Assembly (NCBI RefSeq): GCF_003058225.1
Contig: NZ_QBUG01000006.1
Location: forward strand, 372,001-436,000
Length of the DNA: 64,000 bases
Source of the DNA: Promicromonospora sp. AC04
GTDB taxonomy: Bacteria > Actinomycetota > Actinomycetes > Actinomycetales > Cellulomonadaceae
Direction of reading: 5' to 3'
In this document: positions 879 to 18,132 of the stretch, in pieces
Layout of the letters: each line of letters starts with the position of its first letter
Position numbering within the stretch: position 1 is the first letter of the stretch
Made by a program: the position numbers and the translations under genes
The notes under the pieces: generated by a model
What the model was told of the DNA's origin: nothing
What the model saw: the letters and a program-made list of their open reading frames with translations, nothing else
Database searches by the model: none

Positions 879-1985
879 ATGAACGCTCGGCCCCTGCTCC
901 CCCACCTGCGCCGGATGCTGCACGTGGGACCGTACGGCGGAGAGCTTCCCGTAGCCCTGCGCGCCGCCGCCTCGGTAGCCGTGCCGATGCTCGTGCTCTG
1001 GGCGACCGGCCATCTCGAATGGTCCCTCTACGCGACGTTCGGCGCCTTCACCAGCCTGTTCGGGCGCACGGTACCGATCCGGGCGCGCCTGCTCATGCAG
1101 GTCCAGGCCGGCGGCGTCCTGGTGGCGTCGGTGCTGCTCGGCACCCTGATCGCCGTCCTGAGCCCGACGGCGTCCGCCGCCGGCTGGGTGGTGGTCCCCG
1201 TCGCCGCGGTCTGGGCCACCGCCGTCGCGATCCTGTCCCATCGGCTGCGCTGGCATCCGCCCGGGCCGCTGTTCCCCGTGTTCGCGCTGGGCGCCTGCTC
1301 GTCCGTGCCGGTCGGGCCGGACCGGCTGCCGGTCGCGCTGGCCGTCACGGTCGTCGCCGCGCTGTTCGCGCTCGCGCTGACCGCCGCGATCGCCCGGTTC
1401 GAGAGCGGCGCAGCCGCCGCGCCGACGCCGGCTCGCCCGCCCGCCCCCGCGTCGGCGTCCGCCCCAGCGCAGGCTCCCGCCCCCGCGCATGCTCCCGCGG
1501 GCAGATCAGGACCAGCGCCCGAATGGACGCTGTCCCACTACCTCGTGCGGTACGCCATGGGGGTCGCCGTGGCCGGCGCGATCGCCACCGCCGTCGGGCA
1601 TCCCTACTGGGCGATGGTGGCCGCGGTGGTACCCATGTCGGCGCCCGACGCCGCCGGGCGGCTGACCCGGGCGGCCCAGCGCCTCGCCGGCACCCTGGTC
1701 GGCGTCGTCATCGCGTGGGTGCTGCTGACGGCGGCGCCACCACCGCTGGTCGTCATAACGATCGCCGCGCTGCTCCAGGCCGGCGCCGAACTGTACGTGG
1801 GGCGGAACTACGGCGTGGCCATGCTGTTCATCACGCCGCTCGCGCTGTCGATGGCCCAGCTCGCGAACCCCGTGCCCGTGGGCGAGCTCGTCGCGGACCG
1901 CGCCCTGGACACGCTGGTGGGCGTCGCCGTCGCCGTGGTGATCACGCTGCTCACCCACGAGCGCCGTCAGGACCCGGAGGGCTGA
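879..1985 (+). CDS. FUSC-family integral membrane protein
   Basis: This 368-residue membrane protein has two hydrophobic blocks (about residues 24-170 and 215-355) joined by an Ala/Pro-rich linker near 185-210 (repeats of APAQAPAPAHAP). This is the two-half layout of fusaric-acid-resistance/aromatic-acid-exporter-like (FUSC) proteins. The second half contains YAMGVAVAGAIATAVGHPYW and LTRAAQRLAGTLVGVV, typical of the conserved FUSC segment. A GGGAGG-like ribosome site precedes the ATG. The gene's last 35 bp overlap the end of the convergent SGNH hydrolase gene. It is probably an efflux component; the substrate is unknown. Confidence 0.8.
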   Translation: MNARPLLPHLRRMLHVGPYGGELPVALRAAASVAVPMLVLWATGHLEWSLYATFGAFTSLFGRTVPIRARLLMQVQAGGVLVASVLLGTLIAVLSPTASAAGWVVVPVAAVWATAVAILSHRLRWHPPGPLFPVFALGACSSVPVGPDRLPVALAVTVVAALFALALTAAIARFESGAAAAPTPARPPAPASASAPAQAPAPAHAPAGRSGPAPEWTLSHYLVRYAMGVAVAGAIATAVGHPYWAMVAAVVPMSAPDAAGRLTRAAQRLAGTLVGVVIAWVLLTAAPPPLVVITIAALLQAGAELYVGRNYGVAMLFITPLALSMAQLANPVPVGELVADRALDTLVGVAVAVVITLLTHERRQDPEG

Positions 1986-3009
1986 AGCCGGCGCGGGTTC
2001 GGGCCAGGAGCAGGTCCCGCACCGCCGGGGCGACCACCGACGCCATGTGCTCGTAGCCCGCGGGGCCCGGGTGCAGGCCGTCGTCGAGCAGGTGCGCGTG
2101 CTCCGGCCCGAGCACCGACCGGCCGTCGAGCAGGTGCAGGTCCGGGTCGCCGTGCGCGACCAGCAGCCCGACGGCGTCCGCCACCCGGTCGCGTACCTGC
2201 TCCAGGGTCAGGCCCGCGCGGCCGACAACAGCCTCCCGCCGGGGTGACGCCACGGGCGAGACGACCAGCACCGGCACGCCCGGATGCCCGTCCCGGACCG
2301 TGCTCAGGAACCCCAGCAGCGCCGGGAGCAACGAGCGCGCGCTGAACGTGCCCGCGCCGTACACGTTGATGCCGAGGCAGGCCACGACGACGTCGGCGGG
2401 CAGGTCCCGCACTACCCGCGCGACCATCGGGTCCAGCTGCGCCTCGCCCGCGAAGCCGAGGCACGTCAGGTCCAGGCCGAGCTCGCGCGCCACCAGCGCG
2501 GGCCACGTCCGCGCGGGCGACGCCGCCTGACGGCACTGCGTCAGCGAGCTCCCGTACGCCACGAACCGGGGCCGACGCCGAACCGGGTCGCCCGGCGCCG
2601 CGGCCCCCGCCCACACTCGCGCCCCGTCCTCGACCGCCACGCTCACCAGCCGGAACGTCCCGAACTGCGGCAGCCACAGCTCGACCCGCTTGTCCCCGGG
2701 CGGCAGGTCCAGGACAAAGCTCCCGCCCGGGCCGACCGGCGCGGAGGCGACGATCGCACCGTCGACCACGGCGTCAAGCGGCACCTCGACGCCCTGGACC
2801 GCTGCCCGCCCGGCGAGCACCCGGGCGTCGGTGCGCAGCACCACCCGCACCCCGGCGGGCATCGCCGCGCGCGTGCGCAGGGCGCCGCCGGGGAACAGCC
2901 CGATCCGGTCGTGCGGCAGCCGCCAGGCCCGCGACCAGCCCGGCGCATGCTCGACGGAGACGGCGCCTTCCCAAGCCAGGACGTCGTCGTCCGCCCGGAT
3001 CTCGCGCAT
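1951..3009 (-). CDS. SGNH/GDSL-family hydrolase (carbohydrate esterase-like)
   Basis: The protein is about 352 residues if translation starts at the ATG at 3009 (MREIRADD), which has a GAGGG site just upstream; a longer GC-rich extension is possible but less likely. An N-terminal beta-rich region is followed by the SGNH core. Block I is YGSSLTQ (nucleophile Ser), block II includes GFAGEA, block III is LGINVYG, and block V is DDGLHPGPAGY with the Asp/His pair. The YGSSLTQ variant is typical of GDSL-like esterases that often act on acylated sugars. It is divergent from the LacI gene and shares its control region, so it probably belongs to that regulon. Its 3' end overlaps the convergent FUSC gene. 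Confidence 0.8.
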   Translation of the reverse strand: MREIRADDDVLAWEGAVSVEHAPGWSRAWRLPHDRIGLFPGGALRTRAAMPAGVRVVLRTDARVLAGRAAVQGVEVPLDAVVDGAIVASAPVGPGGSFVLDLPPGDKRVELWLPQFGTFRLVSVAVEDGARVWAGAAAPGDPVRRRPRFVAYGSSLTQCRQAASPARTWPALVARELGLDLTCLGFAGEAQLDPMVARVVRDLPADVVVACLGINVYGAGTFSARSLLPALLGFLSTVRDGHPGVPVLVVSPVASPRREAVVGRAGLTLEQVRDRVADAVGLLVAHGDPDLHLLDGRSVLGPEHAHLLDDGLHPGPAGYEHMASVVAPAVRDLLLARTRAGFSPPGPDGARG

Positions 3010-3281
3010 CACACCCTCGTTCCGTCGAGCCAGACCCCCTGCCCGCCACCCCCCGCCCCCCAAGACCGACCCGCAAGTTCCTCACCCATACCGGCGTCGA
3101 GCCGGAAGTTGCGTGTTGATCCCGGCAGCGATCGACAGGTTACTTTCGGCTCGGCGGCGGCCGAGACCGGCCGGCCTCCGGCCGAGACGGCCAGCCATCG
3201 ATTCGCCGGGTGAATCACGCGAGATAGGGCCGCATTCTCTTGACGCCCCACATCCCGATCAATATTGTGACCGTCTCGGTG

Positions 3282-3299
3282 CTTTAATACGTATTAGAG
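3282..3299. promoter_or_regulatory. palindromic LacI-type operator between divergent genes
   Basis: TAATACGTATTA at 3285-3296 is a perfect 12-bp palindrome with a central CG, as in LacI-family operators, and it extends to CT..AG at 3282 and 3299 with one mismatched pair. It lies in an unusually AT-rich patch of the 330-bp gene-free region (3010-3339) between the SGNH and LacI genes. A TTGTGA element at 3265-3270 could be a -35 box. The rest of this region shows no gene. Confidence 0.65.
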
Positions 3300-3339
3300 A
3301 TTCTACCGGCGATGGCGCCGGTCACCCAAGGAGTCCGCG

Positions 3340-4404
3340 ATGAGCCAACGACGGCGCCCCACCCAGGTGGACATCGCGCGAGCCGCAGGCGTCTCGCAGG
3401 CGACCGTCTCCCTGGTGGTCAGCGGCGGCCCGGCGAGCGGCCAGGTCGCCGAGCAGACCCGCAGGGCGGTGCTCGACGCCGCCGCGGAGCTCGGCTACAC
3501 CGTCAACGCCGCGGCCCGCAGCCTCAAGGGCGGCCGCAACCGGATGCTCGGCCTGTACACGTTCGAGGCCGTCTTCCCGGTGGACCAGCGGGACTTCTAC
3601 TTCCCGTTCCTGCTCGGCGTCGAGGAGGCCACCGCAGAGTTCGGGTACGACCTGCTGCTGTTCAGCTCCGTCGGCACGGGCAAGCGCCGCATCTACTCCG
3701 GCGGCATCAACCGGCTCAAGGTCGCCGACGGCTGCGTCCTCCTGGGCCGGCATATCGACCACGCCGATCTCGCGGACCTGGTCCGCGAGGACTTCCCCTT
3801 CGTCTTCGTCGGACGGCGCGAGCTGCCCGGGACCGAGCTCTCCTACGTCGCCCCGGACTACGTGGGCGCGACACGTGACATGGTGCGCCGCCTGACCGGC
3901 GTCGGGCACCGGCGCCTCGCCTACCTGCGGCCCGCCGACCACCAGGAGCCCACGCGCGACCGCGAGGACGGGTTCCGCGCCGGCCTCGCCGACGCCGGCC
4001 TGCCGGACCAGCCGATCCACGAGATCCCTGACGACGCCGACCTCGCCGCCACCGACGCCCGCCTGGCCGCCCTGCTCGACGAATGGCTGGCCGACGACGT
4101 CACCGCGCTCCTGGTCGAGCCCAGCGAGGACGACCAGGCGATCGCCGCCCTGGAGCGGGTCGCCACCGAGGCCGGGGTGCGTATCCCCGATGACCTCTCC
4201 GTCGCCCTGCTCGGCGACCCCGCGCCCAGCGGCGCCGGGCGCGCGACCGGCCGGAACTGGACCCGCTTCACGCTCCCCCGCGAGGACATGGGCCGCGCGG
4301 CCGTCGGCCTCCTGCTCGAGCTCCTGGAGGCCGACGACGGCCCGCGCCGGCTCTCGGTGGCGTGCACCGCGGTCGACGGCGACTCGGTCGGCAGGCCGCG
4401 ATGA
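3340..4404 (+). CDS. LacI-family transcriptional regulator of the catabolic locus
   Basis: The 354-residue protein starts with a LacI helix-turn-helix (PTQVDIARAAGVSQATVSLV). The hinge helix region contains NAAARSLKGGRNRMLGL, and a periplasmic-binding-protein-like effector domain follows. The stop codon overlaps the start of the first permease gene (ATGA at 4401-4404), so it is translated as part of the transporter operon, which is unusual for a repressor of that operon. It probably binds the palindrome at 3282-3299 and responds to a sugar-like ligand imported by the system. Ligand identity is unknown. Confidence 0.9.
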   Translation: MSQRRRPTQVDIARAAGVSQATVSLVVSGGPASGQVAEQTRRAVLDAAAELGYTVNAAARSLKGGRNRMLGLYTFEAVFPVDQRDFYFPFLLGVEEATAEFGYDLLLFSSVGTGKRRIYSGGINRLKVADGCVLLGRHIDHADLADLVREDFPFVFVGRRELPGTELSYVAPDYVGATRDMVRRLTGVGHRRLAYLRPADHQEPTRDREDGFRAGLADAGLPDQPIHEIPDDADLAATDARLAALLDEWLADDVTALLVEPSEDDQAIAALERVATEAGVRIPDDLSVALLGDPAPSGAGRATGRNWTRFTLPREDMGRAAVGLLLELLEADDGPRRLSVACTAVDGDSVGRPR

Positions 4405-5333
4405 TGCTCTCCTTCCTGCTGCGGCGCCTCGCGGTCGGGCTGTTCACGATCTGGGGCGTCCTCACCGCCGTCTTCCTGATCGTGCGCCTCGCGCCGGGCG
4501 ACCAGGCCACCGTCGCCCTGGGGCCCGACGCCGCGCCCGAGCAGCTCGCCGAGCTGCGGCACACCCTGGGCCTGGACCGGCCGGTGCTCGTCCAGTACCT
4601 CTCGTTCCTCGGAGACGCGGTCCGCGGCGACTTCGGCGAGTCCTACCGGTACGGGCGCCCCGCCATGGACGCGGTGCTGGAACGGTTCCCCGCCACCGTC
4701 ACGCTCACGCTGGCGGCCACCGTCATCGCGATAGTCGTCGGGATAGTGCTCGGCGTGGTGGCCGGGCACCGGCCCGGCAGCCTGGTCGACCGCACGACGT
4801 CGGCGGCCACGCTGGGGCTGCAGGCCCTGCCGCCGTTCTGGGTCGGGATCATGCTGATCCTCGTCCTCGCGCTGTGGCTGCGGCTCCTGCCGAGCGCCGG
4901 CGGCGGAGACCTGGAGCACCTGATCCTGCCCGCGGTCACCCTCGCCATCCCGTTCACGGCGCTGGTCGGCCGGATCACGCGCAGCGGCGTCGCCGAGACC
5001 ATGTCCGAGGCGTTCGTGCGCACTGCGCGGTCCAAGGGCCTGACCGAGCGCGAGGTGCTGACCGGGCACGTCCTGAAGAACTCGCTGGTCCCGGTCGTCA
5101 CGGTCGTCGGGCTCCAGGTCGGCACGCTGCTCGGCGGCGCCGTCGTCATCGAGACGGTGTTCGCCTGGCCAGGGCTCGGCAACCTGCTCGTCGGTGCCGT
5201 GGGCAACCGCGACTACGCGGTGGTGCAGGCCGCGACCGTGCTGATCGCCCTCTGCGTCATCGTGCTCAACCTGGCCGCCGACCTCGCCTATGCCCGCCTC
5301 GACCCGCGCATCCGGCTGGAGGCGCGCCGATGA
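4401..5333 (+). CDS. Opp/Dpp-type ABC transporter permease (DppB-like)
   Basis: This is a 310-residue inner-membrane permease. The N-terminus MMLSFLLRRLAVGLFTIWGV and the segment VRLAPGDQATVALGPDAAPE are typical of the DppB/OppB subunit. A C-terminal binding-protein-dependent transport domain carries the EAA loop (FVRTARSKGLTEREVLTGHVLKN). The start is set by the ATGA overlap with the LacI stop; a second ATG follows directly. It ends in another ATGA overlap with the DppC-like gene. It forms the membrane channel with that protein. Family members carry peptides but also oligosaccharides and opines. Confidence 0.93.
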   Translation: MMLSFLLRRLAVGLFTIWGVLTAVFLIVRLAPGDQATVALGPDAAPEQLAELRHTLGLDRPVLVQYLSFLGDAVRGDFGESYRYGRPAMDAVLERFPATVTLTLAATVIAIVVGIVLGVVAGHRPGSLVDRTTSAATLGLQALPPFWVGIMLILVLALWLRLLPSAGGGDLEHLILPAVTLAIPFTALVGRITRSGVAETMSEAFVRTARSKGLTEREVLTGHVLKNSLVPVVTVVGLQVGTLLGGAVVIETVFAWPGLGNLLVGAVGNRDYAVVQAATVLIALCVIVLNLAADLAYARLDPRIRLEARR

Positions 5334-6211
5334 GACTCTCGCGCCAGGTGGGCGGCCCCGTTCGCGGCTCAGCAGGCGGCCCGGTCCGCGGCTCCGTCGG
5401 CAGCTCCGTCGGCGCCTACCTGATCTACGCGATCATCGGCGTCTACGTGCTCGCCGCGATCGCCGGCCCGTACCTCGTGCCGTACGACCCGGTGGCCACC
5501 GTGGTCACCGAGCGGCTCCTGCCGCCCGGCGCGCCCACGGCGGCCGGCACCGCCTGGCTGGGCACCGACGGCGTCGGCCGGGACGTGCTCGCGCAGGTGG
5601 TGCACGGGGCGCGCACCTCCCTGACGATCGGCGTCGTCGTGGTGCTGCTGTGCAGCCTGGTGGGCGTGGCCCTCGGCGCGGTCGCCGGCTACGCGGGCGG
5701 GTTCGCCGACGTCGCCGTGGCCCGCACCATCGACGTGCTCATGGCCTTCCCCGGCATCCTGCTCGCCATAGTGATCGCGGGCCTCCTCGACCGCGGCGTC
5801 GACGTCGTGATCATCGCCCTCTCGGTGGCGGGCTGGATCGGGTTCGCCCGGCTGTCCAGGAGCGTCGCCCTGTCCGTCCGCGAGCGCGACTGGGTCGACG
5901 CCGCCCGGATCATGGGCGTGCGCACGCCCGCCGTCCTCGGCCGGCACGTCGTCCCGTTCCTCGCGGGGCCCGTCGTCGCGCTCGCCACGATGGAGCTCGC
6001 CTCCGTCGTCCTCTCCGAGGCGGCCCTCAGCTTCCTCGGCCTCGGCCTGCCCCCGTACGTCGTGTCCTGGGGCCAGAGCATCGCGAGCGGCAAGGAGTAC
6101 CTCGCCACGGCGTGGTGGATCTCGGCCTTCCCAGGCATCGCGCTCACCGTCCTGGTCGTCTGCATCGGCCTGGTCGGGGACCGCCTCACCAAGCGCTTCG
6201 CCCAACGCTGA
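5330..6211 (+). CDS. Opp/Dpp-type ABC transporter permease (DppC-like)
   Basis: This 293-residue permease is translationally coupled to the preceding one. It has the short DppC-type domain after the first membrane segment (VPYDPVATVV), the conserved HWLGTDxxGRD-like motif seen here as WLGTDGVGRDVLAQVVHGAR, and an EAA loop (WVDAARIMGVRTPAVLGRHV). The first 25 residues are a low-complexity duplication (GGPVRGS repeated), encoded by direct repeats at about 5349-5405, and are not typical of the family. This part may be a recent tandem expansion or an upstream start overcall. Confidence 0.92.
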   Translation: MRLSRQVGGPVRGSAGGPVRGSVGSSVGAYLIYAIIGVYVLAAIAGPYLVPYDPVATVVTERLLPPGAPTAAGTAWLGTDGVGRDVLAQVVHGARTSLTIGVVVVLLCSLVGVALGAVAGYAGGFADVAVARTIDVLMAFPGILLAIVIAGLLDRGVDVVIIALSVAGWIGFARLSRSVALSVRERDWVDAARIMGVRTPAVLGRHVVPFLAGPVVALATMELASVVLSEAALSFLGLGLPPYVVSWGQSIASGKEYLATAWWISAFPGIALTVLVVCIGLVGDRLTKRFAQR

Positions 6212-6259: not shown

Positions 6260-7777
6260 ATGAAGCTCAACACCCGGCGAGCGGTACCTGCCCTCGCCCT
6301 CACCTTCACCCTTCTGACCGCCGCGGCCTGTGGTAGCACCAGCCCCGGCAACGACGACGGCGACGACGCCGCGGGCGGCACCGTCACCGCGGCCGGTCCC
6401 ATCCCGATCGAGAACCTCGACCCGCACGGCCCGTCCAGCATGGACGCCGGGACGCAGCTCGCGGCCCGCGCCCTGTTCAGCCAGCTCGTGGTCAGCACCG
6501 GCCCGGGCGAGTTCACCGGCGACCTGGCCACCGGGTGGGAGCCGAACGACGACACCAGCCAGTGGACGTTCACGCTGCGCGACGGCGTGGAGTTCTCCGA
6601 CGGGGAGCCGGTCGACGCCGACGCCGTCGTCGCCTCCTTCGAGCGGGTCCAGGAGCTGCAGGGCCCGCTGGCCGGCAACTTCGTGGACTACCAGGTGGAG
6701 GCGCCGGACGCCACGACAGTGGTGTTCGACGCCGGCAAGCCGGACGCCTCGTTCGTCGCGAAGATCTCGTCGTTCTTCGTCACCCCGGCCGACGTCGACG
6801 ACGCGTTCTTCCAGGAGCCCGTGGGCTCCGGGCCGTTCGTCGTGGAGTCGTTCACGCCCGGCCAGGAGCTGCGGATGACGCCGAACCCGACGTACTGGGA
6901 CGGCGCCCCGGCGCTGCAGGAGCTGGTCTTCCAGTCGATCCCCGAGGTCTCGGCCCGCATGACGGCGCTGCAGACCGGCGAGGTCGACGTCACCTGGGCC
7001 ATGCCCGACGACCAGATCGCCGCCCTGCAGGGCGACACCTCGATCACGGTGGAGGACGTGGAGAGCCCCGGCGTCGTCACCATGTGGATGAACAGCGGCG
7101 AGGAGAGCCTCGAGGAGGCCGCCGTGCGCCGCGCCCTGTGGCAGGCGGTCGACTTCGACGAGATCACCGCGTCGCTGTTCCCCGAGACGGGCACCCCCGC
7201 GGACTCCGTCGTCAGCCCGGTGGTGCTGGGCTACGCGCCGCAGGAGCCGGTGGCCTACGACCCGGACGCCGCAAAGGCGGCCCTCGACGCGGCCGGGTTC
7301 GACTACGACACCAAGCTCCGGCTGCAGTTCTCGCAGCCGCAGTTCCGGCAGCTCGCGCAGGCCGTGGCCTCCGACCTGGCCGAGATCGGCGTCCAGGTCG
7401 AGCCGCTGGAGAAGGAGCAGGCGGTGTTCCTGGAGGACCTGCTGGCGCTGAAGTGGGACATCAACCTGCAGCAGGTCGGCTCGCAGGGGTACGACGCCGC
7501 CACGAACCTCGGGCGCCTGTACCCGTGCGCGGCGGGCCGCACCGGCTACTGCAACGAGGAGCTCGACACGCTGCTCGCCGACGCCGAGGCGACCAGCGAC
7601 ACCGCCGAGCGGGAGGACCTCTACGCGCAGGCCACGAAGATCATCTGGGACGACGCCGTGGGCATGTACCCGATGTTCGTCGGCATGCCGTACGCGTGGC
7701 GCACGAGCGTCCAGGGCTTCGAGCCGGCCGGGGACAGCCTGCCGTACTTCACGCACGTGACGAACTCCGAGGGCTGA
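6260..7777 (+). CDS. Opp/Dpp-type extracellular solute-binding lipoprotein
   Basis: This 505-residue binding protein has a lipoprotein signal (LLTAAACGS, lipid-attachment Cys near 24) and should be anchored outside the membrane. The family-5 binding fold is recognisable from IPIENLDPHGPSS, the LATGWEPNDDTSQWTFTLRDGVEFSDG segment and the C-terminal YAWRTSVQGFEP. A good ribosome site (GGAAGGAACGAG) precedes the ATG. It follows both permease genes, whereas many operons of this family put it first. It sets the substrate specificity of the locus, but ligand type cannot be read by eye. Confidence 0.93.
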   Translation: MKLNTRRAVPALALTFTLLTAAACGSTSPGNDDGDDAAGGTVTAAGPIPIENLDPHGPSSMDAGTQLAARALFSQLVVSTGPGEFTGDLATGWEPNDDTSQWTFTLRDGVEFSDGEPVDADAVVASFERVQELQGPLAGNFVDYQVEAPDATTVVFDAGKPDASFVAKISSFFVTPADVDDAFFQEPVGSGPFVVESFTPGQELRMTPNPTYWDGAPALQELVFQSIPEVSARMTALQTGEVDVTWAMPDDQIAALQGDTSITVEDVESPGVVTMWMNSGEESLEEAAVRRALWQAVDFDEITASLFPETGTPADSVVSPVVLGYAPQEPVAYDPDAAKAALDAAGFDYDTKLRLQFSQPQFRQLAQAVASDLAEIGVQVEPLEKEQAVFLEDLLALKWDINLQQVGSQGYDAATNLGRLYPCAAGRTGYCNEELDTLLADAEATSDTAEREDLYAQATKIIWDDAVGMYPMFVGMPYAWRTSVQGFEPAGDSLPYFTHVTNSEG

Positions 7778-9629: not shown

Positions 9630-11299
9630 TGGGCGCGCGGGGGCTGGGCGGGCAGGAGCTGGGCGTGCCTGCGGCGGGCGGGCGGGAGCTGGGCGCCGAG
9701 GTGCTGGTCGTGGGCGGCGGCGCGGGCGGGGTCGCCGCCGCTCTGGCCGCGCTGCGGCGGGGCCGCGCCGTGGTGCTCACCGAGGAGACGGACTGGCTGG
9801 GCGGGCAGCTCAGCGCGCAGGGTGTGCCGCCGGACGAGCACCCGTGGATCGAGCAGTTCGGCTGCACGCAGTCCTACCGGGCGTTCCGCGAGGGCGTGCG
9901 GCAGTACTACCGCACCTGGTATCCGCTGACGGCGGCGGCCCGCCAGGTAGTGGACCTGAACCCGGGCCTGGGCCGGGTCAGCCGCCTGTGCTACGAGCCC
10001 CGGGTCGCGGCGGCGGTGCTGGACGCGATGGTGGCCCCGTACCTGTCCTCGGGCCGGCTGCGGATCCTGTTCGAGCACCGCCCGGTGGCGGCGCGGACCG
10101 ATCGCGACCGGGTGGAGGCCGTCACCCTGGAGGGTCCGGACGGTGCCCTGGTGACGGTCGCCGCGCCGTACGTGCTGGACGCCACGGAGCTGGGCGACGT
10201 GCTGCCGCTGGCCGGCGTCGAGCACGTCACGGGGTTCGAGTCGGCGGCCGAGACCGGGGAGCCGAGCGCCCCCGACGTCGCGCAGCCGGGCAACCAGCAG
10301 GCGTTCTCGTGGGTGTTCGCGATCGAGCACCGCGAGGGCGAGGACCACACGATCGACCGGCCGGAGCAGTACGAGTTCTGGCACGACTTCCGGCCGGCCG
10401 GCTGGCCGGACCGCATGCTCAGCCTCACCGCGCCCGACCCGCGCACGCTGGAGCCGCTGGTCCGGACGTTCGTGCCGCACGCGCACGACGGCCCGGTCGT
10501 GGCCGACCAGAGCGCCGACCCCGGCGACCGGGACCTGTGGCTGTTCCGCCGCGTGGTGGCCCGCGAGCAGTTCGAGGCCGGGTTCGCCGCGAGCGACGTC
10601 ACGCTCGTCAACTGGCCCATGATCGACTACCTGCCCGGCCCGCTGGTGGGCCCGGCGTCCGACCCCGTGCCCGACGCCGAGCGCGAGAAGCATCTCGCGG
10701 GGGCCCGGCAGCAGTCGCTGAGCATGCTCTACTGGCTGCAGACCGAGGCGCCCCGGCCCGACGGGGGCACGGGCTGGCCGGGCCTGCGACTGCGGCCGGA
10801 CGTGCTGGGCAGCCCGGACGGGCTCGCCAAGGCGCCGTACGTGCGCGAGTCGCGGCGTATCCGGGCCCGCACCACGGTGCTGGAGCAGGACCTGTCGCTG
10901 ACGGTCCGCGGCGACGCCGGGGCCGTGGCCTACCCCGACTCGGTGGGCGTGGGCATGTACCGGATCGACCTGCACCCCAGCACCGGCGGGGACAACTACC
11001 TGGACGTCCCGTCCAGCCCGTTCCAGATCCCGCTCGGCGCGTTGCTGCCCGTCCGGGTGCGCAACCTGCTGGCTACGGGCAAGAACATCGGCACCACGCA
11101 CATCACCAACGGCTGCTACCGGCTGCACCCGGTCGAGTGGAACGCCGGGGAGGCGGCCGGGGCGCTGGCCGCGCACTGCCTGGCATGCGGCCTGGAGCCC
11201 GCGCAGGTGCACGGCGACGCCGGGCTGCTCGCAGCGTTCCAGGCCGAGCTGGTCGCCGACGGGTTCGAGCTCGCCTGGCCCGAGATCAGGGGGTACTGA
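9629..11299 (+). CDS. FAD-dependent oxidoreductase (FAD_oxidored type)
   Basis: The 556-residue protein has an N-terminal FAD-binding dinucleotide motif (LVVGGGAGGVAAALAALRRG, from about residue 28). Conserved blocks of the FAD_oxidored group follow: WLGGQLSAQGVPPDEH, LDATELGDVLPLAG, and a C-terminal ATGKNIGTTHITNGCYRLHP that closes the FAD site. Proteins of this group are often found beside glycan-degradation genes and are sometimes labelled xanthan-lyase-associated, but the reaction is generally unassigned. Here it sits between the importer and a DHDPS-family enzyme, so it may oxidise the imported sugar or its derivative. No signal peptide is seen; it should be cytosolic. Confidence 0.85.
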   Translation: MGARGLGGQELGVPAAGGRELGAEVLVVGGGAGGVAAALAALRRGRAVVLTEETDWLGGQLSAQGVPPDEHPWIEQFGCTQSYRAFREGVRQYYRTWYPLTAAARQVVDLNPGLGRVSRLCYEPRVAAAVLDAMVAPYLSSGRLRILFEHRPVAARTDRDRVEAVTLEGPDGALVTVAAPYVLDATELGDVLPLAGVEHVTGFESAAETGEPSAPDVAQPGNQQAFSWVFAIEHREGEDHTIDRPEQYEFWHDFRPAGWPDRMLSLTAPDPRTLEPLVRTFVPHAHDGPVVADQSADPGDRDLWLFRRVVAREQFEAGFAASDVTLVNWPMIDYLPGPLVGPASDPVPDAEREKHLAGARQQSLSMLYWLQTEAPRPDGGTGWPGLRLRPDVLGSPDGLAKAPYVRESRRIRARTTVLEQDLSLTVRGDAGAVAYPDSVGVGMYRIDLHPSTGGDNYLDVPSSPFQIPLGALLPVRVRNLLATGKNIGTTHITNGCYRLHPVEWNAGEAAGALAAHCLACGLEPAQVHGDAGLLAAFQAELVADGFELAWPEIRGY

Positions 11300-12249
11300 T
11301 GCTGACCGGGACCCCGCTCCTGACCGGCGTGACCGTGCCGCTGGTGACCCCCATGGAGCCGGGCGGACGCCCGTCGGCCGAGCGCTCCACCCGCCTCCTG
11401 GACGCCCTGTACGCGCACGGCGTGCGCACCCTCATGCTGCTCGGCAGCAACGGCGAGGGCCCGCTGGTGCCGGCGTCCGACGTCGGCCCGTTCACCGCGG
11501 GAGTGATCGCCCGCTGGCGGGAGCTGGGCGTGGCCGCCGGGCCGGAGCCCGGGCGAGAGCACGGGCGGCAGTCCGCGGGCATCGTCACGGTGAACGTCAC
11601 CGCCGCGGGCACGCTCGACGTCCTCGCGCGGGCCGACGCCGCCGCCGCGGCGGGCGCGGACGCGCTGGTGCTCAGCCCGCCGATCTACTTCCACCACCGC
11701 GCCGACGAGGTGGTGGCGCACTACGCGGCCCTGGCCGCCGTCGGCCTGCCCGTCGTGGCCTACAACGCGCCCCGGTACAGCAACCCGATCACGCCGGGGC
11801 TCGCCGACGCGCTGGCGGACCTGGACCACGTGGTCGGCATCAAGGACAGCTCCGGCGACCTGGCGCTGCTGGAGCACCTGGTGGGGATCTCGGCGCGCCG
11901 GCCGGGCTTCGCCGTCGGGCAAGGGGCCGAGACCCAGCTCGCCGCCGCCCTGGACCTCGGCGCGCACGGCATAGTGCCCGGCGTCGGCAACATCGCGCCC
12001 GGGCCCGCGCTCGCGCTGGTGGCCGCGCACCGCGCGGGCGAGACCGCCGAGGTCGCCCGCCTGCAGCAGGTGCTGACCGACCTGACGGGCCTGCACAAGG
12101 TGCGCCCGGGGACGCCGTCGATCAAGACGGTGCTCGCCCGGCGCGGGCTGTGCCCGCCGCACGTGGCGCCGCCCCTGCTCGCCTGCGACCCGGGCGAGCG
12201 GGCGGCGCTGCGCGCCTTCGTCACGCCGTTCGAGGAGCACCTCATCTGA
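11299..12249 (+). CDS. DHDPS/NAL-superfamily aldolase or dehydratase
   Basis: This 316-residue TIM-barrel enzyme belongs to the dihydrodipicolinate synthase/N-acetylneuraminate lyase superfamily. The Schiff-base Lys is in VVGIKDSSGD (about residue 182), the Tyr in VAYNAPRYSNP, and the pyruvate-binding loop is LGSNGEGPL. A short Pro/Gly/Arg-rich insertion near residues 76-90 (AAGPEPGREHGRQSAG) is unusual. The start overlaps the previous stop (TGATG). The location suggests a 2-keto-3-deoxy-sugar-acid aldolase or dehydratase; lysine biosynthesis is unlikely. Product assignment is inference. Confidence 0.88.
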   Translation: MLTGTPLLTGVTVPLVTPMEPGGRPSAERSTRLLDALYAHGVRTLMLLGSNGEGPLVPASDVGPFTAGVIARWRELGVAAGPEPGREHGRQSAGIVTVNVTAAGTLDVLARADAAAAAGADALVLSPPIYFHHRADEVVAHYAALAAVGLPVVAYNAPRYSNPITPGLADALADLDHVVGIKDSSGDLALLEHLVGISARRPGFAVGQGAETQLAAALDLGAHGIVPGVGNIAPGPALALVAAHRAGETAEVARLQQVLTDLTGLHKVRPGTPSIKTVLARRGLCPPHVAPPLLACDPGERAALRAFVTPFEEHLI

Positions 12250-12405: not shown

Positions 12406-14328
12406 ATGCCCCAGCCCGTGACCCGACGGAACATGCTCTGGACCGCCGGTCTGGCCGGCCTGGCGACCGCCGCCGGTGCCGTGTCCACCCCCCTGTCCCC
12501 CGCCTCCGCCGCACCCCTCACCACCGCCCCCGCCGACGACCCGCCGGAGCTCTCCGACCCCTCGCTCGCCACGCTGGACATCTCCGGCGCCACCACCCCG
12601 CAGGAGTTCGGCGCCCTGGCCGACGGCGTCAACGACGACACCGTCGCCATCCAGGCCGCCATCGACGCGCAGTTCGAGCGGCTGAGCAAGATCGTCTGGT
12701 TCCCGCCGGGGACCTACCGCATCACCGCGCCGCTGGTGGTCCGCGACACCGAGTTCACCGAGCCGATGAACCTCAACCGCATAGTCCTGGCCGGCCAGGG
12801 CACGATGGGCGTGCGCACGTCGCTGATCCTGGTCGACTTCGACGGCACGGGCGTGGAGATGCACGCCCCGCTGTGCGGCATCCGGGGGCTGTCGTTCATC
12901 ACGCGCACCCGCACGCCGAACTCGGTAGCAGTGCGCACGGCGCGGACCAACAACACCGACGACATGGACGCGACGATCACCGAGTGCACGTTCGTCTCGT
13001 TCAACCAGGCGGTGGTGCACATCGGGCGCGGGCTGGTCTTCACCAACAACCTGGTGGCGATCTCCGGGACGGCGCTGACGGTCCAGTGGCCCACGGACGG
13101 CACCGGCGGCGGCGACCTGCACCTGCTGCCCTACGGCATGCGCAAGTGGCTCATCGAGGGCAACCACTTCCACAGCATGAACCAGTGCATAGCGACCACC
13201 GGCGCGGAGAACGCCAACTTCCGCGGCGCGGTGATCTCCAACAACCTGGTCGACATCGGCCGGCGGTTCTTCACCGGCGGCATCATCAACTCCACGATCG
13301 TCGGCAACGTCGTCGAGCACGCCTCCGGGCCGGCCATCGACATCACCGCGGGCGGCACCAACCTGACCATCGCGGGCAACGTGATCGGCGGTGGCGGGGT
13401 GGAGCCGGGCGGGAACCGGCCGCCGAACGCGATCCTGTTCCGCGGCGTGGACGCGCACAACGTCACCATCAGCGGAAACACGTTCAACTGGATCAACCTC
13501 GACCCCGTGGCGTTCGAGCAGTCGGCCTCCGAGATCACGATCTCGGCCAACTCGTTCGACAACTGGAACCTCGAGCACAGCCTCATCCGGGCGGCGGTGC
13601 GGGTCGCCGGCAACGCAGCGGGCATCTCCGTGATGGGCAACGCGTTCGGCAGCAACACCGTGGCCGGGAACCCGCCCGTGAGGGTCACGGGCACCATGAC
13701 CGGCTCCACGATCAGCGGCAACATCCTGGACCCGGGCGCGCCCGTGGTCGTGGCGGGCACCGTGGGCGAGGGCTGCTACATCCAGCGCCGCGGCGCCGGC
13801 GCCAACGAGCACGAGGTCACCTCGGTCAAGAACGGGGCGTCGGTCATCCGGGCCACCGCCCCCGACGGGTACGCCGCGGGCGACGCCTACGGCAGCTTCC
13901 TCGCGGCGTCCGCGCAGCTCGCGGGGGCCGGGCCCGGCGTAAAGGGCGGGGTGCGGGTGGTGCCGGCGGACGACACGGGCGGCGCCGTCGTCGAGCTGGT
14001 GGCAGCCACGCCCGAGGCCAACGCGGTGGCCACCGTCCGGGTCGGGGCCGACGGCGTGGTGCCCACCACGGACAACGAGCGCGACCTCGGTTCGGCGGAG
14101 CACAAGATGCGGACCGTGTACGCCCACGGCCTCCAGCTCGCCCCGAACCCGGTGGCCGAACTGCCCGAACCCGTCGCCGGTGGCATCGTGATGGTGCCGG
14201 ACGCGCTGGGGCCGTTCCCGACGCTTGCCGTCTCCGACGGCAGCCGCTGGTTCCGGGTGATCGTCGCCGGGTACCTCACCCCGGACGGCGCGACGGTCGA
14301 GGTGCCGGGGGCCGAGGAGCAGTCGTGA
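12406..14328 (+). CDS. Tat-exported right-handed beta-helix protein (pectate-lyase-3-like)
   Basis: This 640-residue protein starts at an ATG with an excellent ribosome site (GGAAGGAAAG). A twin-arginine signal (TRRNMLWTAGLAGLATAAGA) ends near an Ala-X-Ala site at about residue 35. The EFGALADGVNDDTVAIQAAI and VWFPPGTYRITAPL segments are hallmarks of pectate-lyase-superfamily beta-helices. A long run of helix coils follows with repeated NxFxxxN/GN-type turns (GNVIGGG, ISGNTFNWINL, ISANSFDN). The C-terminal 200 residues resemble phage-tail-like or appendage sheets. It should be secreted and may bind or cleave a polysaccharide; a lyase mechanism cannot be confirmed. Confidence 0.82.
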   Translation: MPQPVTRRNMLWTAGLAGLATAAGAVSTPLSPASAAPLTTAPADDPPELSDPSLATLDISGATTPQEFGALADGVNDDTVAIQAAIDAQFERLSKIVWFPPGTYRITAPLVVRDTEFTEPMNLNRIVLAGQGTMGVRTSLILVDFDGTGVEMHAPLCGIRGLSFITRTRTPNSVAVRTARTNNTDDMDATITECTFVSFNQAVVHIGRGLVFTNNLVAISGTALTVQWPTDGTGGGDLHLLPYGMRKWLIEGNHFHSMNQCIATTGAENANFRGAVISNNLVDIGRRFFTGGIINSTIVGNVVEHASGPAIDITAGGTNLTIAGNVIGGGGVEPGGNRPPNAILFRGVDAHNVTISGNTFNWINLDPVAFEQSASEITISANSFDNWNLEHSLIRAAVRVAGNAAGISVMGNAFGSNTVAGNPPVRVTGTMTGSTISGNILDPGAPVVVAGTVGEGCYIQRRGAGANEHEVTSVKNGASVIRATAPDGYAAGDAYGSFLAASAQLAGAGPGVKGGVRVVPADDTGGAVVELVAATPEANAVATVRVGADGVVPTTDNERDLGSAEHKMRTVYAHGLQLAPNPVAELPEPVAGGIVMVPDALGPFPTLAVSDGSRWFRVIVAGYLTPDGATVEVPGAEEQS

Positions 14329-14399
14329 GCAGGGGCATCGTGAGCAGGGGCATCGCGAGCAGGGGCACCATGATCAGAGGCACCGTGGGCGGGGACGCC
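14325..14399. repeat. 15-bp tandem repeat between two coding sequences
   Basis: Two exact copies of GTGAGCAGGGGCATC (14325-14354) are followed by three progressively diverged 15-bp units ending at 14399. The first unit overlaps the stop codon of the beta-helix gene. Decay in one direction suggests stepwise duplication from the 5' side. Confidence 0.85.
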
Positions 14400-14417
14400 G
14401 AGGGAGGAGACCCGTGA
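14325..14417 (+). CDS. possible 30-codon coupled repeat peptide
   Basis: A GTG at 14325 overlaps the stop of the beta-helix gene (GTGA) and opens a 30-codon frame. Its own stop (14415-14417) overlaps the GTG start of the FAH-family gene (GTGA at 14414). The peptide would read as repeated SRGI/SRGT pentads followed by GGDAEGGDP. Overlaps at both ends are what translational coupling would give, but the sequence is repeat-derived and no independent ribosome site is evident. It could be a bridge that carries ribosomes to the next gene rather than a functional peptide. Confidence 0.35.
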   Translation: MSRGIVSRGIASRGTMIRGTVGGDAEGGDP

Positions 14418-16573
14418 GACTGGCCAGCTTCCTGGTCCAGGGCACCGAGCGCTGGGGCGTCGTCGTGCGGGATCCCGGCGTCGGGCAGCGGCCTGACGCC
14501 GGGCTCGGGCCCGGCGTCGCGCCCGGCCCCGGCCCTGGCCCGGGCCGCCGGGAGTGGCTCGTCGAGCCCGCCCTGGCCGAGGCCGCGCTGGCGGCCCACG
14601 CGGCCATCCCGTCCTCGGGCCCGGCCACGGCCCCGCGATTCCTCGCGGGGCGGTGGCCGGACACCCTGGTCGGCTTCCTCGCCCTGGACGACGCCGGGCT
14701 GGTCGCCCTGTCCCGGCTCGTCGCCGCGGTCGAACGGTTCGCCGCGCAGACCGACGCGACGATCCTGCCGCGCTCGGGCCACCCTGTCGGCGACCGGACC
14801 GAGGGGCCGGGCGACGACCGGGCTGGCAGACCCGGCTACGACTGGGCCGACGGACCCGCCGACAGCTTCGAGCTGCTCGCCCCGATCCCCCGGCCGCGCC
14901 TGTGCTGGGGCCTGGTGACGAACTCGCCGTCGTTCCTGCGCAACAGGCCCGGCGTACCGCTGATGAACCTGTTCCCGCTGGGGCACCAGCGGCCGCAGGG
15001 GGCGGTGGTGGGCCAGGGCGCGCCAGTGGTCATGCGGCACGACAACCACCTGCCGAGCATGGCCTACAACGTGGAGCTGGCGGTCGTGATCGGCCGGACG
15101 GGGCGCGACATCCCGGTCGAGCGGGCGATGGAGCACGTGGCGGGCTACACCGTGGTGAACGACGTCTCCGGCACCCACTACTACTCCGCCGTCCCCGGCA
15201 ACACCGGACGCGGCTACTCGCTGCCGCCCGGCTACCAGGACTGGCTGTACCAGGCCACCGCCTCGTGGGGCGGCAAGAAGGCCGACACCCTGTGCCCCAT
15301 GGGCCCCTACCTCGTCACCAAGGACGAGGTAGGCGACCCGTACAACCTGCTGATGTGGACGCGGCAGTCGGGCCGGACGCGCGACCGCGCGCACACCGGG
15401 GCAACCCTGCTGGGCATCGAGCGGGTCATCGCCTGGTACTCCTCGTTCGCGTCCCTGCACGTGGGCGACGTGATCCACTTCGGCACCATGGGCGTCGACG
15501 GCCTGCCCGTCACACCCGCCGAGATCGCCGCGGGCACGCGCCTGGAGGTCGAGATCGAGTCCGTGGGCGCGCTGGCCAACCCGGTCGTGGTGCCCGACGT
15601 CGGGCACGACGCGGCCGGGTCCACCAGGACCGACCTCACCCGGCACTCCTCGTGGGCCGTGCGGGAGCTCGCGCTGCACGAGCGCAACCGGCCCGGCGTG
15701 ACGGCGATCGAAGCGCCCGAGGACTGGTCGGTCGCGGGGGCGCGGCACTTCTGGACGTCCTTCGGCAACGGCGCCCCGGTGAACACGCCCGACCCCGACG
15801 GCCTGCCACGGCTGGCCGTGCCGCGCTTCCTGAACGGCCCCGCCTCATCCCTGTCCGCGGGCAGCCCCGTGCGCGTCCCGGCGCGCGCCACCGACCTCGT
15901 CATCGCGGTCGAGCTCGCGCTGGTGGTGCGCCGCCTGACCTCCGACGCCGCCGACGTGCCAGACCAACAGGTCGCCCGGACGACCCGCTCGCCCGACCGG
16001 TCGGAGACCGACGAGCTCGTCCTCGGTTACACGCCCCTGGTGTCGGTCTGCGACCAGTCCTTCCGCGACGCCGTCGTCGAGCCCGCCCGCGCCGGCGAGC
16101 GCGGCATCGGCGCGATGTACGGGCGGTGGGCGGACGGCTTCAACGTCGTGCTGCCCGCGCCGCAGCCGCTGGCGCCAGTCGACGGGCTGCCCGACCCGGA
16201 CGGCTGGTCCGGGCGCGAGATGTGGCTGCGGGTGACGGGAGTCGGGACGCCGGATGCGGCCCTTGCAGGGGCCGGTGCCGGTGCCAGTACCGCGGCTGGG
16301 GCCGGAGCCAGTGCAGGGGCCGATGCCGGACTGCCGGCCGAGGTGCACGGCTCGACCGCCGCCTACGCTGCCGGGCCCACCGAGCTGCTGGCCGCGATCT
16401 CCCGCATGATCACCCTGTTCCCCGGCGACGTGGTGACGCTCGGCGCGACATCAGCCCGGGTGCGCGTCACGCGCGAGCAGTACGCGGCCGGGCTGGACGT
16501 CACCGCCGGCATCGAGGGCCTGGGCACCGTGCGCGCCCGGATCACGCCAGACGGCGGCCAGGAGACGACATGA
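14414..16573 (+). CDS. double-domain fumarylacetoacetate-hydrolase (FAH) family protein
   Basis: At 719 residues this is about twice the usual FAH-family length. Domain 1 (about residues 160-400) has PRLCWGLVTNSPSF, YNVELAVVIGRTGRDIP with the metal-ligand-type Glu, VAGYTVVNDVSG and HVGDVIHFGTMGVDG. Domain 2 (about 490-719) repeats the order: LVIAVELALVVRRLT, VLGYTPLVSVCDQSF and FPGDVVTLGATSARV. The two halves are joined by a region containing EDWSVAGARHFW. FAH-fold enzymes hydrolyse diketo acids or dehydrate 2-keto-3-deoxy sugar acids, which fits the neighbouring DHDPS-family enzyme. Start GTG has an upstream GGAGG. The Gly/Ala-rich tract near 620-640 is low complexity. Reaction is inferred. 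Confidence 0.82.
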   Translation: MRLASFLVQGTERWGVVVRDPGVGQRPDAGLGPGVAPGPGPGPGRREWLVEPALAEAALAAHAAIPSSGPATAPRFLAGRWPDTLVGFLALDDAGLVALSRLVAAVERFAAQTDATILPRSGHPVGDRTEGPGDDRAGRPGYDWADGPADSFELLAPIPRPRLCWGLVTNSPSFLRNRPGVPLMNLFPLGHQRPQGAVVGQGAPVVMRHDNHLPSMAYNVELAVVIGRTGRDIPVERAMEHVAGYTVVNDVSGTHYYSAVPGNTGRGYSLPPGYQDWLYQATASWGGKKADTLCPMGPYLVTKDEVGDPYNLLMWTRQSGRTRDRAHTGATLLGIERVIAWYSSFASLHVGDVIHFGTMGVDGLPVTPAEIAAGTRLEVEIESVGALANPVVVPDVGHDAAGSTRTDLTRHSSWAVRELALHERNRPGVTAIEAPEDWSVAGARHFWTSFGNGAPVNTPDPDGLPRLAVPRFLNGPASSLSAGSPVRVPARATDLVIAVELALVVRRLTSDAADVPDQQVARTTRSPDRSETDELVLGYTPLVSVCDQSFRDAVVEPARAGERGIGAMYGRWADGFNVVLPAPQPLAPVDGLPDPDGWSGREMWLRVTGVGTPDAALAGAGAGASTAAGAGASAGADAGLPAEVHGSTAAYAAGPTELLAAISRMITLFPGDVVTLGATSARVRVTREQYAAGLDVTAGIEGLGTVRARITPDGGQETT

Positions 16574-18132
16574 CCCGCAGCCCCGACGTGCTGGTCGTCC
16601 TCGCCGACGACCTCGGCTACTCCGACGTCGGCGTGTTCGGCGGCGAGATCGACACCCCCGCCCTGGACCGGCTGGCGCGCCGCGGCGTACGGATGAGCTC
16701 CTTCTACGTCACACCCCGCTGCAGCCCGTCCCGCGCGGCCCTCCTCACGGGGCGGCACTCGCACGACGTCGGCGTCGGCGTGCTCACCAGCGACGACCGC
16801 CCGTACGGGTACCGCGGCTCCCCGGACCCCACTGCGCCGACGCTCGCCGAGCGGCTCCGCTCCATCGGCTACACGACGGCGCTCGCGGGCAAGTGGCACC
16901 TGTCGGCGCAGACGGCCGAGCCCGACGAGACCTGGCCCACCCGCCGCGGGTTCGACGAGTTCTACGGCGTGCTGCCCGGCGCCGTCAGCTACTACGGCCC
17001 GCCGCTGGTCGACGGCGAGGAACGGCTGCCGCCGTCGGCCACCGCCGGGGACTACTACCTGACGGACGACCTGACCCGGTACGCGCGCGACTTTGTCGAG
17101 CGCGCGCACAAGGGCGGGCGGCCGTGGTTCCTGTACCTCGCCTACACGGCGCCGCACTGGCCGCTGCACGCCCGGGAGGCCGACGTCGCGAAGTACCGCG
17201 AGCGCTACCTCGCCGGCTGGGACCGGCTGCGCGAGCGCCGGCTCGCGGAGCAGCACCGCCTCGGCCTGGAGACCGCTGCCGACCTGCCGGCGCGCGACCT
17301 GCGGGTGCCTGCGTGGGCGGAGACCTCCGAACCGGAGTGGGAGGCCGAGCGCATGGCCGTCTACGCGGCGCAGGTCGAGGCCATGGACCGGGGCGTCGGC
17401 GCGCTGCTCGACCAGCTGGAGGCGCAGGGCACGCTGGACGACACGCTGGTGGTGTTCTGCTCGGACAACGGGGCGTGCGCGGAGGAGCTGCCGACGCCGT
17501 CGGGCCGCCTGCCGGTGGACGTGTCCCCGCCGACGACGCGCGACGGGCGGGCCGTCCGGGTGGGCAACTCCCCCGACGTCGTCCCGGGGCCCGAGGACTC
17601 CTACGCGAGCTACGGCCGGTCGTGGGCGCACCTGTCGAACACGCCGTTCCGGCTGTACAAGCGGTGGGTGCACGAGGGCGGCATCGCGTCACCGCTCATC
17701 GCGTCGTGGCCGGCGGGCGGCGTCCTGGGCGGTGGCCGGACGGCGGGACCGGGCCACGTCGTCGACATCGCGCCCACCGTGCTGCGCGCCGTGGGCGGCG
17801 ACACCAGCGGGATGGCGGGCGCGAGCATGCTCGACCAGTGGCGGGGCGAGGCGGCGGTCGAGCGGCCGCTGTTCTGGGAGCACCTCGGGAACGCCGCCGT
17901 GCGGTACGGCCAGTGGAAGCTGGTCCGCGAGGCGGGGCGGCCGTGGGAGCTGTACGACATCCTGGCGGACCGCGGCGAGACGCACGACCTCGCCGCCGAG
18001 CACGCCGACGTCGTCACGCGGCTGGAGCACTGCTGGGAGGTGTGGGCGCGGTCGACCGGGGTGATCGAGTGGGACCGGCTGCTGGAGTACTACCGGATGC
18101 GGGGCCTGGAGCAGTCGGTGCTGCCGGACTGA
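16570..18132 (+). CDS. type I sulfatase, apparently cytosolic
   Basis: This 520-residue alkaline-phosphatase-fold sulfatase begins with the metal site VLVVLADDLGYSDVG. It has the canonical Cys-type sulfatase signature CSPSRAALLTGR, with the Cys (about residue 51) to be converted to formylglycine. Further conserved parts are AGKWHLS, FCSDNGA and LFWEHLGNAAVR. No signal peptide is present, so the substrate must be imported first. The start overlaps the FAH stop (ATGA at 16570-16573), and this is the last gene of the locus. No formylglycine-generating enzyme gene lies in the window. Confidence 0.92.
   Translation: MTRSPDVLVVLADDLGYSDVGVFGGEIDTPALDRLARRGVRMSSFYVTPRCSPSRAALLTGRHSHDVGVGVLTSDDRPYGYRGSPDPTAPTLAERLRSIGYTTALAGKWHLSAQTAEPDETWPTRRGFDEFYGVLPGAVSYYGPPLVDGEERLPPSATAGDYYLTDDLTRYARDFVERAHKGGRPWFLYLAYTAPHWPLHAREADVAKYRERYLAGWDRLRERRLAEQHRLGLETAADLPARDLRVPAWAETSEPEWEAERMAVYAAQVEAMDRGVGALLDQLEAQGTLDDTLVVFCSDNGACAEELPTPSGRLPVDVSPPTTRDGRAVRVGNSPDVVPGPEDSYASYGRSWAHLSNTPFRLYKRWVHEGGIASPLIASWPAGGVLGGGRTAGPGHVVDIAPTVLRAVGGDTSGMAGASMLDQWRGEAAVERPLFWEHLGNAAVRYGQWKLVREAGRPWELYDILADRGETHDLAAEHADVVTRLEHCWEVWARSTGVIEWDRLLEYYRMRGLEQSVLPD

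Follow-up and report, generated by a model that had tools for sequence, protein, structure and literature searches.

A LacI-controlled locus of Promicromonospora centred on a FAD_oxidored flavoenzyme and probably serving the import and breakdown of a sulfated, esterified sugar compound

Introduction

Local sugar operons under LacI control, as parts of PMC4052901 describe them, join an autoregulated repressor and a palindromic operator to an ATP-binding cassette (ABC) importer and catabolic genes, all within one operon, and this is also the layout of the locus considered here, which occupies positions 1951-18132 of a 64,000-nucleotide stretch of Promicromonospora sp. AC04 (contig NZ_QBUG01000006.1; the whole stretch is called the window below) in a genome of 6.85 Mb. 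According to parts of PMC10154612, the sulfated-glycan loci of Bacteroides and CAZyme gene clusters bring together a regulator, an importer, an S1 sulfatase and an exported protein; the Promicromonospora locus does the same, regulator and transporter both standing in the cluster as in a CAZyme gene cluster.

The locus also shares features with other routes. The diketo-hydrolase pathways of L-rhamnose and L-fucose end with a FAH-family step, and the locus resembles them in having a FAH-type protein whose best NCBIfam score is to 2,4-didehydro-3-deoxy-L-rhamnonate hydrolase. With nan clusters it has in common a DHDPS-superfamily enzyme, an Opp-like importer and an esterase, and sialidase-like genes are found in its relatives. 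Its sulfatase is closest to 7all (1.8e-95) and to AtsA of the Pseudomonas type (1hdh; 5.2e-74), both among its best sequence matches.

An initial annotation of this DNA had proposed that a divergent SGNH esterase, a LacI repressor, an Opp-type importer, a FAD_oxidored flavoenzyme, a DHDPS-family enzyme, an exported beta-helix protein, a double FAH protein and a sulfatase form one catabolic unit for which it knew of no described pathway. Within open-licence papers this last view holds: we found there no pathway with this gene set (absence from print is not thereby proven), no paper joining the families of the locus and none assigning the FAD_oxidored family a reaction, PF12831 being named by one paper. 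We hold with moderate confidence that the locus, as judged from its sequence, is a LacI-repressed operon for the uptake and catabolism of a sulfated, probably O-acylated sugar compound, either a glycan fragment or a glycoside, and it is probably a self-contained, switchable set for importing and degrading such a compound.

Results

LacI and its predicted operator

The LacI-family repressor (3340..4404, plus strand) was recognised by both of its Pfam domains, PF00356 (43.6 bits, cut-off 27) and PF13377 (82 bits, cut-off 26.5). Between its gene and that of the SGNH esterase, 43 bases before lacI, lies a perfect palindrome, TAATACGTATTA (3285..3296, no strand assigned), which we predict to be the LacI operator; a central CG is typical of the palindromic operators of this family. 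A promoter-like TTGACG-17 bases-TATTGT was read by eye at 3240..3268 on the plus strand. With up to one mismatch allowed, WAATACGTATTW occurs at a single place in the whole genome, 3285-3296, and shuffles of the window gave no operator match.

The operator core is kept before LacI in Promicromonospora and Jiangella, with variable flanks. It stands at the head of the locus in 13 of 13 relative genomes (head positions matched to loci by eye), ten times perfectly over the ten central bases and three times with one mismatch (G301, G303 and G090). More widely, WATNCGNATW sites head 24 of 28 LacI loci from three phyla, with 35 sites against 0.16 expected at the background of the same loci, a count that is partly circular because the pattern was widened after the rhizobial sites had been seen. 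The commonest form is again TAATACGTATTA, and at its eighth base C is the main alternative to T. The operon begins with the binding protein in two of the 28 loci, where that start was used; L019, from Promicromonospora soli, has the site and no flavoenzyme; and for L033 it was a second LacI copy, with no flavoenzyme behind it, that entered the test, the site of this genome's main LacI lying in L127. A plasmid search for the operator reached 9 of 14 submitted loci, and in eight of these nine records sites were found only at the LacI head. The LacI control proposed in the initial annotation is borne out, as a prediction, by one operator at the head of the operon.

Conservation of the gene set

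Searches for the double FAH protein gave matches in 10 of 296 genomes of the class and in 5 of 13 of the genus (own genome included in both counts), as well as in 8 of 12 Jiangella genomes. All 14 distinct genomes with a match in the class and genus searches were inspected; they span two genera and one metagenome-assembled genome, for which L021 was used as well. The importer, the FAD_oxidored flavoenzyme, the beta-helix protein, the double FAH protein and at least one sulfatase occur together in 13 of them, P. panici being counted as intact by joining L039 and L126, which lie on two contigs. In the fourteenth, P. soli (L041), LacI and the double FAH gene stand side by side as the sole locus genes left, and the operator core still precedes LacI. 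The SGNH gene, the importer-to-beta-helix genes and the sulfatase have been lost there.

The constant unit is the importer, the flavoenzyme, the beta-helix protein, the double FAH protein and some sulfatase under LacI. Around it, the DHDPS-type gene is an optional member, present in 6 of 14 loci. The SGNH esterase adjoins LacI in 4 of 5 Promicromonospora loci (among relatives, L040, L042 and L126); it was not seen at any of the 8 operon heads tested in Jiangella, the Jiangella genomes not having been searched whole for it. There, an unrelated alpha/beta hydrolase adjoins LacI, near full-length in four of eight genomes, as fragments in two (loci L108 and L127) and absent from two. The sulfatase has orthologues of 86-88% identity in P. 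panici and two other genomes of the genus, whereas Jiangella-type loci carry one or two other sulfatases with about 26-42% identity over the aligned parts; of the two in L038, one has an S1_8A sulfatase as its best match among solved structures, and the other N-acetylgalactosamine-6-sulfatase, with arylsulfatase A close behind. In Jiangella anatolica two Gfo/Idh/MocA genes and a BNR_2 protein gene lie between the FAD_oxidored and the beta-helix genes. Near the sulfatase end of L030, a gene at 263-3391 encodes GH31 C-terminal and golvesin domains; this is the sole copy scanned, and similar large genes occur in L033 and L038.

The grouping is more than chance, since gene order is conserved in 13 of 14 genomes and a dedicated operator heads it, and the synteny that the initial annotation had asked to be checked proved strong. 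Its picture of one logical unit is also supported. The unit is nevertheless looser than first claimed, and its twelve genes are not equally bound, because DHDPS and SGNH are optional and the sulfatases differ between genera.

An older core of LacI and FAD_oxidored

Relatives of the flavoenzyme were found on 37 plasmid records and relatives of LacI (E up to 1e-30) on 31, of which 30 are among the matches listed. All these 30 lie at most 4 kb from a FAD_oxidored match (coordinates compared by eye), so that close plasmid relatives of LacI adjoin the same flavoenzyme family as in the window. The plasmids belong to rhizobia, Agrobacterium, Streptomyces, Nonomuraea, Deinococcus, Allomeiothermus and Thalassospira, and the annotated loci inspected consist of LacI, FAD_oxidored, a sugar-type ABC importer and few other genes. 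The LacI of the D. aetherius locus is weaker, and in three rhizobia a different SGNH gene adjoins LacI; one of these three was compared and rejected as an orthologue of the SGNH esterase of the locus (27 aligned residues, E 1e-4). In Parabacteroides, FAD_oxidored is accompanied by SusC/SusD-type genes.

The pair thus spans phyla with quite different partner genes. Over 25 loci the distances among LacI proteins run parallel to those among the flavoenzymes (r = 0.93, with 0 of 2000 permutations as high), a correlation that comes partly from shared ancestry alone. In the FAD_oxidored tree, whose root we chose, the locus copies and a Jiangella paralogue group together with a support of 0.948. As read from these sequences, LacI, its predicted operator and FAD_oxidored form a core older than the full locus.

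Two more FAD_oxidored modules, of 65 and 60% identity, lie in the AC04 genome itself on contig 1, near 593.7 kb (L060) and 507.3 kb (L061), both with sugar-type importers by eye; at L060 there are also a LacI that belongs to the same subfamily and a GH43 gene nearby, and no operator match. Beside more distant FAD_oxidored relatives in L068, L072, L073 and L079 stand a NanE-type epimerase and sugar kinases, in some cases with a GH38 (by eye) or an Opp importer.

Further operator sites in Jiangella

Perfect copies of AATACGTATT occur at 18 places in the 13 relative genomes, eight of them away from the head of the locus. At four of these eight, in four genomes, the gene behind the site encodes a large protein that begins with a BNR domain and has an export signal by eye; the one of these that was scanned also contains Laminin-G, fn3 and golvesin C-terminal domains and ends in a tannase-like DUF6351. 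A BNR sialidase-like/tannase-like DUF6351 fusion lies behind a perfect operator at 9096-14138 of L118. Another extra site heads an operon that encodes a MGH1-like glycoside hydrolase, paralogues of FAD_oxidored (74% identity) and of the DHDPS protein (52%), as well as an exported BNR protein, another precedes a beta-helix paralogue (43% identity), and another lies about 320 bases before the alpha/beta hydrolase adjoining the locus. The seven further Jiangella sites precede genes that fit a predicted glycan-type regulon.

The arginine of the R-I-P motif is a residue of the sialidase (GH33) motif. Five operator-linked BNR proteins have histidine at this place, and the arginine is kept in L031 and L033, which are other Jiangella loci. 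At 767-3447 of L033, a second LacI gene (63% identity) is followed by one for a GH33-like protein, and GATACGTATC stands before this LacI.

The twelve genes of the locus

The twelve genes and the families first given to them were confirmed from open reading frames, Pfam and NCBIfam. The family searches covered ten; the second permease and the second ABC ATPase were assigned by frame, start and synteny, and their family by position and sequence. All twelve frames agree with the GC-by-codon-position signal. The statement that most genes are joined by 4-base overlaps was too strong: with the starts as chosen this is so for three of ten plus-strand junctions, three more overlap by 1 base (two of these by 4 bases with alternative starts), and the other four are gaps of 48, 35, 156 and 85 bases.

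The divergent SGNH/GDSL esterase (1951..3012, minus strand; start at 3063 also possible) was found by Pfam with an SsfX3_N domain and has no signal peptide by eye; its orthologue adjoins LacI in three relatives. The other eleven genes of the locus lie on the plus strand. The importer is made of a DppB-like permease of Opp/Nik type (4404..5333, NCBIfam; ATG at 4401 also possible), a DppC-like permease of Opp type (5330..6211), a SBP_bac_5 substrate-binding protein (6260..7777, Pfam), a DppD/OppD-like ATPase (7813..8838, NCBIfam) and an OppF-like ATPase (8835..9629). Permease and binding protein match Nik/Opp models best, below the curated cut-offs.

The flavoenzyme (9629..11299; GTG at 9626 also possible) was placed in FAD_oxidored by Pfam, alignments and the tree. 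It matches PF12831 over the full length of the profile (346.6 bits, cut-off 27; residues 24-541, profile positions 1-416 of 416). Among the best 60 of 358 matches, a profile of the enzyme aligned with general flavoproteins only over its first hundred or so positions, and a sequence search against solved structures gave no match at E up to 0.01. It is likely a sugar dehydrogenase.

The next gene (11299..12249) encodes a class I aldolase or dehydratase of the DHDPS superfamily (112.8 bits in Pfam, cut-off 22.1). In class I members of this superfamily a lysine is the Schiff-base residue and a tyrosine its partner; here Lys182, Tyr155 and the GSNGE motif are invariant across six aligned sequences. 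The protein falls below every curated NCBIfam cut-off listed, and its identification as DapA (88.5 bits vs 206.15), NanA (52 vs 281 and 42.8 vs 382) or KdgD (65.6 vs 278 and 33.3 vs 373.95) was rejected.

The right-handed beta-helix protein (12406..14328) has a twin-arginine export signal by eye. It is the sole candidate in the cluster for a glycoside hydrolase or polysaccharide lyase domain; in Pfam it matches PF13229 and only the N-terminal part of PF12708 (positions 6-62 of 213), and its matches to solved structures are short and N-terminal, which is why we give it no activity. The surface attack first ascribed to it lacks catalytic evidence, and the exported enzymes linked to the Jiangella operators fit that role better.

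The double FAH protein (14414..16573, two FAA_hydrolase domains in Pfam) has no signal peptide by eye. The metal motif of FAH hydrolases of diketo acids is E-x-E plus D, and the three solved relatives compared show E-x-E. In the locus protein the first glutamate of the motif is absent from both domains: the first reads N-x-E (N-V-E) with D250 and the second A/S-x-E with D547, and both hold in seven of seven aligned sequences. Its top NCBIfam score, for 2,4-didehydro-3-deoxy-L-rhamnonate hydrolase (NF053535), is 102.8 bits, far below the cut-off of 500.

The last gene (16570..18132) encodes a S1 sulfatase (Pfam) with a CSPSR motif and no signal peptide by eye. The same C-x-P-x-R is present in 12 of 12 locus sulfatases inspected in relatives. 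Elsewhere the genome has two strong genes for formylglycine-generating enzymes (281.5 and 276.2 bits) and a third match of 68.5 bits; it holds four sulfatase-family matches, one of them partial. Part of PMC10154612 ascribes O3-galactose endo-desulfation to one S1_4 enzyme, a specificity that we do not transfer to the sulfatase of the window.

Directly behind the locus, a gene of 140 amino acids (18209-18631) has no Pfam family at E up to 0.01; it is kept in all four relatives of the genus with a double FAH protein, even in P. soli with most locus genes gone. Further on, G+C dips to 0.655 at 26001-28000 and to 0.68-0.69 at 60001-64000 of the window, against about 0.73 in the surroundings.

Discussion

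From these data we infer the substrate, the order of the steps, their chemistry and the electron acceptor. From its site at 3285-3296, a little downstream of where transcription likely starts, LacI would block the operon, its own gene included, and might also block the divergent esterase; an imported sugar or the product of its oxidation would release it. Outside the cell, the exported beta-helix protein may bind or cut the compound, which the Opp-type ABC importer would bring in. In the cytosol, the SGNH esterase would strip an acyl group and the formylglycine sulfatase the sulfate; the flavoenzyme could then oxidise a sugar carbon to a ketone, the double FAH protein act on the beta-dicarbonyl that this yields, and the DHDPS-type enzyme, if present, split or dehydrate a keto-deoxy acid on the way to central metabolism. 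We place the committing step, which would be common to members of the module, at the oxidation because one flavoenzyme with a sugar importer is the common theme of the older core.

The initial annotation had suggested a glycan from which acyl and sulfate groups are removed, and this part is supported at the level of sequence. A glycan-type substrate is suggested by the Jiangella operator sites before BNR, MGH1-like, beta-helix and alpha/beta hydrolase genes; an ester group by the esterases beside LacI, namely the SGNH enzyme of Promicromonospora, the alpha/beta hydrolase of Jiangella and the different SGNH enzyme of three rhizobia; and a sulfate group by the C-x-P-x-R sulfatases and the two strong genes for formylglycine-generating enzymes. 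The breakdown of a diketo or ketodeoxy acid, also proposed, is weaker than stated, both FAH domains being without one E-x-E residue.

More tentatively, we suggest that LacI, the operator TAATRCGYATTA and FAD_oxidored may be a portable module of Actinomycetota, Alphaproteobacteria and Deinococcota in which the flavoenzyme enters an undescribed sugar route, and that Promicromonospora and Jiangella may have extended it to a regulon for sulfated, esterified glycans with exported sialidase- and tannase-like enzymes and an altered FAH protein.

Several observations weigh against these proposals. FAD_oxidored relatives occur in very varied contexts, so the substrate may not be constant, and 7 of the 37 plasmid records, such as those of Parabacteroides, Mesobacillus and Rhodococcus, have no LacI among the matches listed. 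Besides the partial circularity of the operator count, the Jiangella loci are related to one another, as are those of the rhizobia; four of the 28 LacI loci (L033, L060, L076 and L082) are without the pattern, as is the ninth of the nine plasmid records searched for operator sites; sites with one mismatch are not above controls in several genomes (G217, 5 vs 5; G303, 5 vs 4); and in P. panici the extra perfect site falls within a predicted gene (L125), for which we have no explanation. By Pfam, the Promicromonospora operon has no classical glycoside hydrolase or polysaccharide lyase, its importer is of a family that transports peptides, opines and metals too, and a hydrolytic reaction of the FAH protein is uncertain because one expected motif glutamate is missing per domain.

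A more specific form of the proposed sugar operon, and the most specific one that we find plausible, would make the flavoenzyme a glycoside 3-dehydrogenase whose 3-keto sugar is opened by elimination, its 1,3-dicarbonyl form passing to the double FAH protein. We regard this as possible, if somewhat doubtful. It is in keeping with the presence of FAD_oxidored near many different carbohydrate-active types, namely GH43, PL8, GHL10 and an MGH1-like glycoside hydrolase (Pfam) and GH1, GH13, GH38 and GH65 (by eye). In rhizobia, Deinococcus, Meiothermus and Thalassospira, moreover, no other obvious catabolic enzyme accompanies the importer. The two Gfo/Idh/MocA genes directly after FAD_oxidored in J. 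anatolica would fit as well; the first scores highest with inositol 2-dehydrogenase (113.9 bits, cut-off 355), and its scores with glycoside 3-dehydrogenase models are low (29.4 and 27.5 bits). However, we identified no 3-keto eliminase in the locus and found no open-licence paper that gives a FAD_oxidored member glycoside 3-dehydrogenase activity.

It is unlikely that the locus is instead a pathway for a sialic-acid-like (nonulosonic) acid, in which a modified keto-acid sugar is freed by sialidase-like enzymes, trimmed by esterase and sulfatase and cleaved by the DHDPS protein as its lyase. The GH33-like protein beside the second LacI in one Jiangella (E 1e-25 to a bacterial sialidase), the BNR_2 protein within the J. 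anatolica operon and the NanE that neighbours FAD_oxidored in four further genomes (L068 and L072 by Pfam, L079 by annotation, L073 by eye) speak for it, and the importer presumably resembles known sialate importers. Yet the DHDPS protein is far under the NanA cut-offs and absent from 8 of 14 loci, and a plain sialic-acid pathway was marked down on two counts, the histidine in the R-I-P motif of the five operator-linked BNR proteins and the lack of NanE and NanK among the locus genes.

Still less likely is that the Opp/Nik importer takes up something like a peptide, an opine or a metal chelate, which the enzymes then trim. The best matches of permease and binding protein are of that kind, and FAD-dependent opine oxidation exists in other systems, but the sulfatase, the exported beta-helix protein and the glycan-type enzymes linked to Jiangella operators do not agree with it, and in other phyla the LacI-FAD_oxidored pair uses sugar-type importers. 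That the genes are accidental neighbours without shared function is hardly credible, being already contradicted by an order conserved in two genera and one metagenome-assembled genome, by overlapping genes and by the one dedicated operator, even if DHDPS and SGNH come and go and P. soli lost most genes.

If the locus is the LacI-repressed sugar operon that we favour, an oxidative entry into sugar catabolism would be added, together with functions for the unassigned flavoenzyme, the double FAH protein and the tannase-like DUF6351. The recurring regulator and its predicted operator mark many operons of a widespread flavoenzyme, which gives a searchable operator and a small, testable gene set, and the operator-linked exported enzymes of Jiangella point at the substrate.

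To our knowledge the flavoenzyme and the double FAH protein have no counterpart in nan clusters, from which the locus also differs by the lack of NanE and NanK among its genes and by scores below the NanA cut-offs. From the L-rhamnose and L-fucose pathways it is set apart by a two-domain FAH protein that has N-x-E and A/S-x-E rather than E-x-E and scores far under the cut-off, and their sugar-acid dehydratase and dehydrogenase are not among its genes; given the altered FAH motif, we rejected a diketo-hydrolase pathway by name. The specificities of 7all and AtsA are not transferable to its sulfatase, and one Jiangella locus uses other sulfatase types. Compared with the sulfated-glycan loci of Bacteroides, as parts of PMC10154612 present them, its sulfatase is without a signal peptide, its importer is of Opp type with no SusCD, and the common enzyme is a flavoenzyme rather than a classical glycoside hydrolase or polysaccharide lyase, of which the operon has none by Pfam. 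In the open-licence literature the operator string was found only in a paper that, by its title, deals with haloarchaeal vectors. Unlike the operons of PMC4052901, in whose main text neither 'oxidoreductase' nor any word beginning with 'FAD' occurs, the locus has its operator tied to FAD_oxidored: it is a modular variant of the LacI sugar operon, with the FAD_oxidored flavoenzyme at its heart.

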